Part shown: positions 45,923 through 48,408 of the stretch, piece after piece | Position numbering within the stretch: position 1 is the first letter of the stretch | Layout of the letters: each line of letters starts with the position of its first letter | Source of the DNA: Providencia sp. | GTDB taxonomy: Bacteria; Pseudomonadota; Gammaproteobacteria; Enterobacterales; Enterobacteriaceae | Reading direction: 5' to 3' | Assembly: GCF_003533305.1 (NCBI RefSeq) | Contig: NZ_DOEH01000021.1 | Location: 122,251-186,250, forward strand | Length of the DNA: 64,000 nt | Program-made: the position numbers and the translations under genes | The notes under the pieces: generated by a model | Seen by the model: only the letters and a program-made list of their open reading frames with translations | The model's database searches: none | What the model was told of the DNA's origin: nothing

Positions 45923-47755
45923 TTACTGTTTCAATGCATTATAAATCTTTTCTGCCAGTGCGTATGAGATCGAGGGCACTTTTGCGATCTCTTCTATACT
46001 CGCATTGCGTAAAGGCTGTAATCCCCCCATGTATTTCAAGAGCATTTGGCGGCGCTTAGGCCCAATTCCTTCTATTGATTCTAATGCACTGGTATTTTTA
46101 ACTTTTGCTCGGCGTTGTCTATGTCCTGTAATAGCATGATTGTGAGACTCATCTCGAATATGCTGAATAACATGCAACGCAGGCGAATCTGGTGGTAATG
46201 AGAAACCTTCACCTTCTGGTTTTAAAAATAGCGTTTCAAGCCCTGCACGGCGATCACTCCCTTTTGCCACACCAATTAATAAAGGATGGTCTTTATTCCA
46301 GTCCACTTCTAAAGAGTCAAAAACGTCTCTAGCTTGACCAAGTTGCCCTTTTCCCCCATCGATGAAAATAATGTCAGGAATTTTATTTTCATCGATATGC
46401 TTACCATAACGACGAGTCAGCACTTGATGCATGGCAGCATAGTCATCGCCTGGGGTGATCCCTGTAATATTATAGCGCCTATATTCAGATTTAACCGGAC
46501 CGGTTTTATCAAACACAACGCAAGAAGCAACAGTTTGCTCCCCCATGGTATGGGATATATCAAAACATTCCATGCGAGAAATCGAATCGAGTTTAACAAC
46601 TTCTGCCAATGACTTTATTCGTTGAATTATCGTTGACTGTTGCGCAATTTTTGTTGATAACGCAATCAATGCATTAGTACGTGCTAATTTTAAGTAACGT
46701 GCTCTTACACCGCGAGGTTGACTTTGAATATTAATTTTTCGCCCAGCAAGTTCAGAAAGTGAGCTTGCAAGTAACTCTTTTTCAGCTAAAGCAAAATCAA
46801 TCAGTATCTCACCAGGTAACGTTCTATTCTCACTACCTTGCAGATAGAACTGCCCTAAAAAAGTTTGAACAACTTCATCTAATAAAGTTCCCGACGGTAT
46901 CTTAGGATAATAGCTACGACTTCCTAATACTTTCCCTTGACGAATAAATAAGACATGGACACAAGCTAGTCCTGATTCAAATGCCACGCCGATAACATCC
47001 AGATCGTCGCTTCCGCCTGAAACATATTGCTCTTCAGTTACCGCTCGTACTGCTTGTATCTGATCACGAAATCGTGCCGCATCTTCGAAACGGAGATCTT
47101 GGCTCGCCTTTTCCATGCGTTCAATTAAACCGGTCAGAACTTGCTTATCTTTCCCAGTCAAAAATAGACGAACATAGTTGACTTGCTGGTCATATTCTTC
47201 ATCAGTCACTAAACCTTTAACACAAGGCCCCAAACAGCGCCCTATTTGGTATTGTAAACAAGGTCTAGAACGATTCTTATAAACGCTATCTTCACACTGA
47301 CGGATAGGAAACAATTTTTGCATCAAAGCCAGTGTTTCTCTCACAGCATAAGAATTTGGGAATGGCCCAAAATATTCACCCTTTGCATGTTTAGCGCCGC
47401 GATGTATCGACAAACGAGGATGAGTTTCTTTGCTTAAAAAGATATAAGGATAAGATTTATCGTCTCGCAACAATACGTTATAGCGTGGTTGATACAATTT
47501 GATGTAATTGTGTTCAAGCAATAAGGCTTCAGTTTCGGTGTGAGTCACCGTGACATCTATTGAAGCGATATGCTTGACGAGTTGTTCTGTCTTACGACTA
47601 CCAACATTTTCTCGAAAATAACTCGATAATCGTTTTTTAAGATCTTTTGCTTTTCCAACATAAATAACAGTTCCGCCAGCGTCATACATTCGATAGACGC
47701 CAGGCTGGTTAGTCACTGTTTTTAAGAAAGCTTTTGGTTCGAACTGTTCTGCCAC
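45923..47755 (-). CDS. uvrC: Excinuclease ABC subunit C (UvrC)
   Basis: 610 residues. The N-terminal GIY-YIG nuclease ('PGVYRMYDAGGTVIYVGKA') makes the 3' incision. A Cys-rich patch, the UVR domain ('GLIERMEKASQDLRFEDAAR') and a central RNase H-like endonuclease ('ECFDISHTMGEQTVASCVVF', 'IDGGKGQLGQA') make the 5' incision. Two C-terminal helix-hairpin-helix motifs follow. Nucleotide excision repair with UvrA/B. The start lies inside uvrY (34-nt overlap), as expected for the uvrY-uvrC operon. Confidence 0.98.
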   Translation of the reverse strand: MAEQFEPKAFLKTVTNQPGVYRMYDAGGTVIYVGKAKDLKKRLSSYFRENVGSRKTEQLVKHIASIDVTVTHTETEALLLEHNYIKLYQPRYNVLLRDDKSYPYIFLSKETHPRLSIHRGAKHAKGEYFGPFPNSYAVRETLALMQKLFPIRQCEDSVYKNRSRPCLQYQIGRCLGPCVKGLVTDEEYDQQVNYVRLFLTGKDKQVLTGLIERMEKASQDLRFEDAARFRDQIQAVRAVTEEQYVSGGSDDLDVIGVAFESGLACVHVLFIRQGKVLGSRSYYPKIPSGTLLDEVVQTFLGQFYLQGSENRTLPGEILIDFALAEKELLASSLSELAGRKINIQSQPRGVRARYLKLARTNALIALSTKIAQQSTIIQRIKSLAEVVKLDSISRMECFDISHTMGEQTVASCVVFDKTGPVKSEYRRYNITGITPGDDYAAMHQVLTRRYGKHIDENKIPDIIFIDGGKGQLGQARDVFDSLEVDWNKDHPLLIGVAKGSDRRAGLETLFLKPEGEGFSLPPDSPALHVIQHIRDESHNHAITGHRQRRAKVKNTSALESIEGIGPKRRQMLLKYMGGLQPLRNASIEEIAKVPSISYALAEKIYNALKQ

Positions 47756-48408
47756 CCTGATAAACCCTGTTTTGCCGTAATTAAACCATAACTGATTGCT
47801 ATGTGTGTTAATTCTACATCACTACAGATATTAAGTTTACCAAACATTCTATATCGATAGGTATTTACTGTTTTTGGGCTCAACGTAAGCGACTGCGCAA
47901 CTTTTTTAATTGGAATTCCCTGTGTTATCATCAACATAATTTCAAGTTCTCTAGCAGATAACAACTCATATAAGTCATGTTCATGACTATGAAGCAGCCT
48001 CTGTAGGGCAATATCTTGAGCTATATCGGGTGAAATAATTCGACGACGAGCGTTAACCACTTGAATAGCTTCAATTAAATCGTCTTCATTAATATTAATA
48101 CTTAAAATACCAAAAATACCAATATCAAGTGCTTTAAGCACAAATGAATAATTACTACGGATATTATATATAATAATACCAACTTCAGGTTGAGTTCGTC
48201 GAAGTATTTGGATTGTTCTTAGCGACTCAAATTGGCAATTATCACTACTAATTAAAATAATATTCGCTCTTTGTTGTCGATTCCAAGCAATAGCGTGTTC
48301 TAGCAACGGAAATGATGCGACAATTTTACAACGTGATATTCGACTAAATATAGTTTCAAACCCACGAATAGTAATATTATTATCGTCAATAATTATAATA
48401 TTAATCAA
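47722..48408 (-). CDS. uvrY: UvrY/GacA-type regulator with a degenerate receiver domain
   Basis: 228 residues with a TTG start. The C-terminal LuxR helix-turn-helix is highly conserved with E. coli UvrY ('LSARELEIMLMITQGIPIKK', 'LSPKTVNTYRYRMFGKLNI'). The receiver keeps Asp8-Asp9. However, the phospho-acceptor position 54 is Ser ('IILISSDN', codon AGT at 48249-48247), the conserved Thr82 position is Asn, and Lys104 is Ile. Phosphotransfer from BarA is therefore unlikely. The locus (uvrY-uvrC-pgsA-tRNAs) is conserved, so this is the positional orthologue. It probably still binds DNA, and its regulation must differ. Confidence 0.88.
   Translation of the reverse strand: MINIIIIDDNNITIRGFETIFSRISRCKIVASFPLLEHAIAWNRQQRANIILISSDNCQFESLRTIQILRRTQPEVGIIIYNIRSNYSFVLKALDIGIFGILSININEDDLIEAIQVVNARRRIISPDIAQDIALQRLLHSHEHDLYELLSARELEIMLMITQGIPIKKVAQSLTLSPKTVNTYRYRMFGKLNICSDVELTHIAISYGLITAKQGLSGWQNSSNQKLS

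Follow-up and report, generated by a model that had tools for sequence, protein, structure and literature searches.

Across the gamma-proteobacteria, the BarA-UvrY-CsrB pathway is regarded as a conserved global regulator. We examine the UvrY/GacA orthologue encoded on the minus strand of a 64,000-nucleotide (nt) stretch of Providencia sp. DNA (contig NZ_DOEH01000021.1, positions 122,251 to 186,250 of the forward strand; hereafter the window), together with the csrB-like gene that lies outside the window in the same genome. With the BarA-UvrY and GacS-GacA regulators this locus shares the gene order around uvrC, the domain layout of the protein, its DNA-recognition region and a box between syd and csrB; unlike them, the Providencia UvrY lacks the acceptor Asp and the conserved Thr and Lys of the receiver, and BarA is not found over its profile cut-off. 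We consider it likely from these comparisons that a phosphorylation-independent UvrY still drives csrB and that the BarA input is gone.

Pseudo-receiver regulators are already a known kind (PMC4395418, PMC12632262); the second of these, a review, describes 20 atypical regulators, of which 18 are orphans. Like the aspartate-less regulators RitR, HP1043, ChxR and CsgD, the Providencia UvrY is an orphan with a receiver fold that lacks key catalytic residues; unlike them, it appears to have a canonical ancestor, a lost kinase and a kept small RNA (sRNA) target that can be read from neighboring genera. A text search of the main text of the same 2025 review found neither UvrY nor GacA named, and its authors call the way in which pseudo-receivers are activated or inactivated a mystery (PMC12632262). 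UvrY output without the acceptor Asp has a parallel in Aeromonas dhakensis, where the toxicity of a uvrY mutant returns when UvrY D54A is supplied on a plasmid (PMC7250320). That case differs in being a laboratory plasmid mutant, in a species that keeps BarA, with toxicity as the phenotype, and csrB goes unmentioned in the parts of the report considered here. Among the matches listed from the open-access PubMed Central literature, we found no description of a naturally phosphate-blind UvrY, of BarA loss across these genera or of the diverged csrB.

A UvrY orthologue with a pseudo-receiver

The window gene is the Providencia UvrY orthologue, and its receiver is a pseudo-receiver. The gene, its two domains and the receiver positions that matter most are as follows.

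47722..48408, minus strand: uvrY, pseudo-receiver UvrY orthologue, 228 amino acids (aa), TTG start (open reading frame, family profile, only strong match in the source genome)
48034..48408, minus strand: pseudo-receiver domain, residues 1-125 (Pfam Response_reg, 39.6 bits, cut-off 30.2, residues 4-116)
48247..48249, minus strand: codon 54, AGT, Ser at the phospho-acceptor position (Asn or Ser in 24/24 Providencia)
48241..48243, minus strand: codon 56, GAT, Asp two residues past the acceptor position (acidic in 23/24 Providencia)
48163..48165, minus strand: codon 82, AAT, Asn at the conserved Thr position (Asn in 23/24, Ser in 1/24)
48097..48099, minus strand: codon 104, ATT, Ile at the conserved Lys position (Lys in 0/24)
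47779..47973, minus strand: LuxR/GerE-type DNA-binding domain, residues 146-210 (Pfam GerE, 59.5 bits, cut-off 23.5, residues 149-204)

The codons AGT, AAT and ATT bear out the substitutions D54S, T82N and K104I reported in the preliminary description of this DNA, and Asp8 and Asp9 are retained. Neither a sequencing error nor an odd strain accounts for them, as the same protein is found at 100% identity on six contigs, with 99% versions on one and three; the error reading is also contradicted by the agreement of all 24 Providencia genomes. Each of these genomes, the source genome included, holds one UvrY copy, and the alignment that the preliminary description had called for extends the pseudo-receiver throughout the genus. 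Position 54 is Asn in 14 genomes and Ser in 10, and position 104 is Ile in nine, Ala in nine, Val in four, and Thr and Tyr in one each, while Asp8 is kept in 24/24 and Asp9 in 22/24. The comparison set comprised 27 canonical loci (L011-L037), the best-scoring ones kept from 93 genomes with a match and hence not a random draw, and all 27 read Asp8, Asp9, Asp54, Thr82 and Lys104; 16 further canonical loci all read Asp54, one of them (G051) broken by stops. With Asn or Ser at position 54 in 24/24 Providencia as against Asp in 27/27 canonical loci, the loss is not a matter of chance. Two other positions separate the sets: position 56 is Asp in 15, Glu in eight and Val in one of the Providencia genomes (Asn in 26 and Gly in one of the canonical loci), and Ser62 is found in 24/24 Providencia where 27/27 canonical loci have Gly. 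Position 106, two residues after the Lys position (K+2), is Ile or Val in 24/24 Providencia and Ala (26) or Ser (1) in the canonical loci. Ala, Ile, Leu and Val at K+2 favor active CheY (PMC12632262); since canonical UvrY already has Ala there, this residue says little.

The erosion reaches beyond Providencia: judging from the aligned rows, essential receiver residues are also missing in proteins named Moellerella, Arsenophonus, Proteus and Morganella. Of the 38 Providencia-like proteins listed, 36 have a letter at position 54 (Ser 21, Asn 14, Gly 1), and Ser or Asn also stands there in two Moellerella rows and one Arsenophonus nasoniae row. At position 8, Glu stands in the Moellerella and Arsenophonus rows and Ser in Proteus-type rows; the former two also share Ser82. 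For the 69 Proteus-type rows, mostly named Proteus or unnamed, nothing aligned at position 54 in the joint alignment; pairwise alignment of the UvrY of G082, labelled Proteus for its 100% match to a Proteus myxofaciens protein, places Tyr there. Two Morganella-type rows keep Asp54 and Thr82 with Asn8, Val or Ile at 9 and Gln104, and the UvrY of G093, labelled Morganella for 87% identity to a protein from a Morganella sp. metagenome-assembled genome, has Asn8, Ala9 and Gln104. Among the matches listed in three protein searches, the remaining rows read Asp54 in 236/236 with a letter there (16 Xenorhabdus plus 63, 117 and 40 others; one gap row, and the Morganella-like fragment P0203 excluded). 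A few of them deviate at other positions: single rows carry Gln9, Gln104, Glu104 or Ile104, and 27 carry Ser82.

Over the receiver, the window UvrY is only 23-27% identical to the 27 canonical loci, over the helix-turn-helix (HTH) domain 60-63% and over residues 176-204 79-83%. The earlier statement that the DNA-binding domain is nearly identical to that of E. coli UvrY thus holds for the recognition region (176-204) and not for the whole HTH. In an AlphaFold2 model built on a 60-row alignment (mean predicted local distance difference test score, pLDDT, 85.9; 84-96 per 10-residue block over residues 1-120), strand beta-3 spans residues 50-54 and is ended by Ser54, with Asp56 lying beyond, which would place Ser54 where the acceptor belongs. 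The preliminary description had allowed that Asp56 might occupy the acceptor position structurally; alignment and model both speak against this. VraR, LiaR and RcsB were the first Foldseek matches and the top 50 were NarL/FixJ-type regulators, with poor whole-chain superposition. As judged by profile and model, then, UvrY is an aspartate-less pseudo-receiver protein in which the fold is present and the acceptor and catalytic residues are missing. The C-terminal tail, encoded in the overlap with uvrC (47722-47755), has pLDDT <50 over residues 215-228, the last 14 being disordered.

Median ratios of nonsynonymous to synonymous substitution rates (dN/dS), which are rough because dS is near saturation, were 0.13 for the receiver (219 usable pairs), 0.097 for the HTH (272) and 0.126 for residues 1-210 (265) among 276 pairs from the 24 Providencia genomes, as against 0.049 (225), 0.031 (39) and 0.035 (135) among 351 pairs from the 27 canonical loci. 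Purifying selection thus seems to act on both domains, although the receiver is less constrained than that of canonical UvrY.

Orthology is anchored by the neighboring genes, all read from the window and in agreement with the uvrY-uvrC-pgsA-tRNA locus first described for it.

45923..47755, minus strand: uvrC, GTG start at 47755, with a 34-nt overlap with the uvrY 3' end
45317..45889, minus strand: pgsA, from the open reading frame list, the start being the first possible one
44882..45151, minus strand: tRNA-Leu, tRNA-Cys and tRNA-Gly genes

The order uvrY-uvrC-pgsA-tRNA-Gly/Cys/Leu is UvrY-type synteny, and the other flank of uvrY carries what we take to be a pepT-like gene, protein genes having been named from their translations. 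NF007018 (NCBIfam UvrY/SirA/GacA) is the best of the 31 families matched by UvrY, at 177 bits, below the curated cut-off of 280 bits. A second, canonical UvrY, raised earlier as a possible complication, was found by neither the profile search nor the protein search of the source genome (4.39 Mb, 33 contigs, 99.99% complete), in which the next profile match scores 129.7 bits and the next protein match is 27% identical. The named relatives of the protein are Providencia, the nearest named one being P. heimbachae at 89%.

The kinase BarA and CsrD

The preliminary description had proposed looking for barA, and no BarA (NF008318) scores over the profile cut-off in any of the 27 affected genomes, comprising the 24 Providencia, G082, G093 and G128, the last labelled Moellerella-like from its residues and its similarity to named rows. 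BarA is over the cut-off in 19/20 comparison genomes, all of which have a UvrY reading Asp54; the exception, G051, has pieces of BarA and UvrY with internal stops. The affected genomes gave only weaker matches to other hybrid kinases, of which the best in the source genome (C14:119036, adjoining a regulator at C14:120625) presumably resembles RcsC. Sensitivity was adequate, in that the nearest BarA holders, G012 and G138 (Xenorhabdus/Photorhabdus-like by resemblance only), score >1000 bits with two blocks summed. In these two genomes (L091 and L090, respectively) BarA is matched as blocks ~1-525 and ~660-918 in a ~790-aa frame, with ~130 profile positions missing. BarA appears to have been lost in this lineage; its loss and receiver erosion go together, with substitutions that differ from genus to genus.

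In a UvrC tree of 57 rows, the Moellerella-like genome and Providencia (98/83) and then Morganella (97/84) form a cluster, whereas the long Proteus branch meets that of G012 and G138 in an open fork; with Proteus so placed, one BarA loss and two are indistinguishable. CsrD (NF008281), sought in 27 genomes, is over the cut-off in 0/15 affected genomes (12 Providencia, G128, G093 and G082; G152 has a weak match of 94 bits), in 0/2 of G012 and G138 and in 6/10 others (two pieces in G113, weak in G133 and G034, none in G147), so its loss is wider than that of BarA. Signaling by cyclic di-GMP (c-di-GMP) is nearly lost in Morganellaceae, as described in PMC10333796, which fits the missing CsrD.

The csrB-like gene and its upstream dyad

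CsrA is present in 30/30 genomes tested, 12 of them Providencia. Six of these 12 (G149, G154, G155, G160, G164 and G166) carry one or two extra CsrA genes, possibly on mobile elements; the source genome has one CsrA gene. Under the stricter filters applied to sets of more than 40 genomes, the Rfam CsrB family (RF00018) was matched in 20/20 comparison genomes, 18 over the cut-off, and in 0/27 affected genomes; the source genome searched alone gave no match up to E = 10, and loci L180, L184, L166, L158 and L179 gave none at E up to 1. The reading that Rfam suggests, that csrB is gone, was set aside on synteny and on the box behind syd. A Syd profile located the csrB place in 29/30 genomes, and a csrB-like gene lies behind syd in 24/24 Providencia and in G128. 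With its start assumed at a -10-like element, it is about 184-219 nt long, holds 4-7 GGA motifs and ends in a terminator, whereas canonical csrB matches at 12 loci span 296-393 nt with 16-27 GGA.

C6:278077-278275, outside the window: csrB-like gene of the source genome, with its dyad at C6:277896

Like CsrB, the Providencia gene stands behind syd with an upstream box, GGA hairpins and an intrinsic terminator; unlike CsrB, it is shorter, has fewer GGA and has no Rfam match in 27/27. We regard it as a putative shortened csrB, too diverged for Rfam, and infer that it is transcribed; on the presence of csrB or csrC, the other check proposed at the outset, the outcome is therefore a csrB-like gene that Rfam does not recognize. 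Alignment A3 (24 Providencia and G128, 23 distinct rows) shows covarying GGA hairpins, three in number, which together with the terminator are paired in 96.5% of cells, as against 14-47% in slid versions; this comparison favors the structure, which had been derived from the consensus of these very sequences. Double-change cells numbered 43, as against 11.5 in shuffles, which related sequences can exceed in pair counts. Beside csrB in G155, L184 carries tandem matches to Rfam V_AS5 (818-940 and 946-1072), below the gathering score, which we take to resemble enterobacterial repetitive intergenic consensus (ERIC)-type repeats.

The canonical UvrY box, TGTRAG-N6-CTYACA, is found with <=1 mismatch at 12/12 Rfam csrB loci, ending 150-201 nt before the csrB match in 10 of them and 265 and 279 nt before it in the others. 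The corresponding Providencia dyad behind syd, TGTARG-N6-CYTACA, is exact in 22/24 and lies 152-156 nt before a shared CATTCTT -10-like element in 24/24. The exact pattern occurs once in the source genome, at csrB, with none for a reversed-pattern control; there is no second exact dyad there, csrC itself not having been searched for. Across 17 Providencia scanned, the exact dyad is at csrB in 16 and is the sole site in 11, with 0-2 control sites per genome. When 13 genomes were scanned with a longer canonical consensus, boxes were found behind syd in G082 (0 mismatches) and G128 (1 mismatch), both between yqcC-like and syd genes, which we take to be the usual csrB place in the E. coli layout. 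Since scan counts (2-9 sites per genome) are near those of the control (0-6), place and not count is the evidence.

Other box-like sites were rejected as targets. A recurrent one, AGTAAGAGATTTCTTACC (6/13 genomes), was examined in G128, where it lies inside a gene (L156) that is presumably rpoA-like, and one in G164 (L150) is inside a reading frame. G090, G149 and G150 each have a second dyad site, which belongs to an extended palindrome, GAGCTGTARG...CYTACAGCTC, between queE- and queD-like genes (L189, L203 and L188, ~1501); it mimics the UvrY dyad, is more terminator-like and was not counted. In G150, a transposase-like frame adjoins it. Separately, a conserved block around TTTTAATTTCATGRCGTTACTAT lies between the dyad and the csrB promoter (L180, ~85-101 nt behind syd, and equivalents), and another factor may bind there.

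Readings of the Providencia circuit

The explanation we favor is that the receiver of the UvrY/GacA orthologue became a pseudo-receiver in a lineage without BarA, while the protein kept its receiver fold and DNA-recognition region. UvrY would then bind the conserved dyad upstream of the shortened csrB without receiver phosphorylation and, once bound, would keep the csrB sRNA transcribed, so that how far CsrA is titrated would depend on how much UvrY is present instead of on signals sensed by BarA. On this evidence UvrY in Providencia probably works without a phosphate signal, and we infer that it occupies the dyad and activates from there with no need of phosphate. The suggestion made at the outset, that the pathway is driven without receiver phosphorylation or has been rewired, is supported and narrows to a BarA input that is gone and a UvrY-to-csrB step that is apparently kept. 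More tentatively, Providencia, Moellerella, Proteus and perhaps Arsenophonus could share a stripped Csr circuit without BarA or CsrD, with a half-length csrB and a UvrY pocket, eroded or rebuilt, that senses a non-phosphate input, the acceptor having gone only once the kinase was missing and through different substitutions in each genus; we would sooner doubt this wider picture than rely on it.

Several observations weigh against an active, phosphate-free UvrY at csrB. Shewanella UvrY requires BarA for its phosphorylation, and csrB expression there is BarA/UvrY-dependent (PMC11045786), so that UvrY lacking phosphate might be inactive; the authors of the Aeromonas study themselves allow for another phosphate donor acting at a residue other than D54 (PMC7250320). 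The Providencia receiver evolves faster than the canonical one (0.13 vs 0.049), and these values are the rough ones noted above. The dyad has one mismatch in G152 and G166, and the pattern used to scan for it was fitted after the Providencia dyads had been seen. Against the longer canonical consensus the source-genome dyad has four mismatches and was missed by that scan, which returned two sites in this genome, the same number as the control and both inside coding frames. The half-sites, at a mean column identity of 0.93, are less conserved than the block at offset ~85-101 behind syd (0.94-0.98). For the csrB-like gene, further pair types in A3 numbered 23, as against 20.9 in shuffles, a value reached by 38/500, and in none of the 24 Providencia did the search turn up yqcC, the usual neighbor, next to csrB. 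Finally, no box was found within 200 nt behind syd in the Morganella genome, where the best candidate has six mismatches, so the picture is not valid for every genus.

Behind its syd, that Morganella genome has a 100-nt, GGA-bearing, terminator-ended stretch. A second GGA-rich stretch (L144, from ~2656), a candidate Csr-type RNA, holds 15 GGA in 250 nt with a terminator-like hairpin at its end, and lies ~1.1 kb from a two-mismatch box, with none nearer. The Morganella Csr RNA may lie elsewhere and be under other control.

The rival that survives best, though we consider it unlikely, is a repurposed pocket, in which Asp8, Asn/Ser54, Asp/Glu56 and Asn82 bind a metal, a metabolite or a partner and csrB has come under a new signal. 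The retention of Asp8 (24/24), Asp9 (22/24), Asn82 (23/24), the acid at 56 (23/24) and Ser62 (24/24) in Providencia is more than would be expected of a pocket abandoned to free drift, and the weaker structural matches (ranks 32-50) include VpsT, a LuxR-type regulator whose structure was solved with c-di-GMP. These residues could, however, be kept for folding; the Thr82, Lys104 and aromatic residue at 101 of the canonical switch are lost, and the pattern differs between genera, with Glu8 and Ser82 in Moellerella and Arsenophonus and Ser8 in Proteus-type proteins.

Less likely still, csrB may have passed to other activators, the dyad being read by another factor or left as a remnant and UvrY serving different promoters. 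The center of the dyad is indeed unconserved (0.62) and its right half has moved from CTYACA to CYTACA, a more conserved block lies between dyad and promoter, and Morganella has no box behind syd. Yet half-site symmetry, position and spacing are kept in 24/24, two with one mismatch, and the UvrY recognition region remains 79-83% identical to canonical; with no other exact site in 11/17 Providencia, no alternative promoter suggests itself.

That uvrY is decaying after BarA loss, kept open only by its overlap with uvrC, strikes us as very improbable. The 23-27% receiver identity, a receiver dN/dS ~2.7x the canonical value and the 34 nt shared with uvrC speak for it, but the overlap spans just the last dozen codons, and uvrY is single-copy in 24/24 with frames of 219-231 aa (those of G152 and G166, at 219 aa, stop ~9 codons early). 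The dN/dS values of 0.097 (HTH) and 0.13 (receiver) also speak against decay, as do the nearly invariant recognition-region residues and the conserved dyad. Hardly credible at all is continued phosphorylation on Asp56 or Ser54/Ser55 by another histidine kinase, acetyl phosphate or a Ser/Thr kinase, to which the Asp or Glu at 56 in 23/24 lends itself, since the Asn found in 14/24 at 54 and the Glu in 8/24 at 56 are not usual receiver phosphate acceptors, Lys104 and Thr82 are each replaced in 24/24 (the latter by Ser in one), and Shewanella UvrY with Asn54 takes no BarA phosphate in vitro as reported in PMC3171408.

For practical purposes, these genes should not be annotated as a BarA-UvrY system, nor should "no csrB" be concluded from Rfam here. 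One comparison brings together a canonical ancestor, genera eroded in different ways (in Morganella the Asp pair and the Lys are gone but Asp54 stays), the loss of the kinase and a target that has likely been retained, which makes the question of pseudo-receiver activation testable with one promoter and one protein. If the stripped Csr circuit of the wider group of genera is real, it would be a natural experiment in which a response regulator was freed from phosphorylation while its target site was held. The pathway has here had its input removed and its output seemingly held, in clinically important genera.

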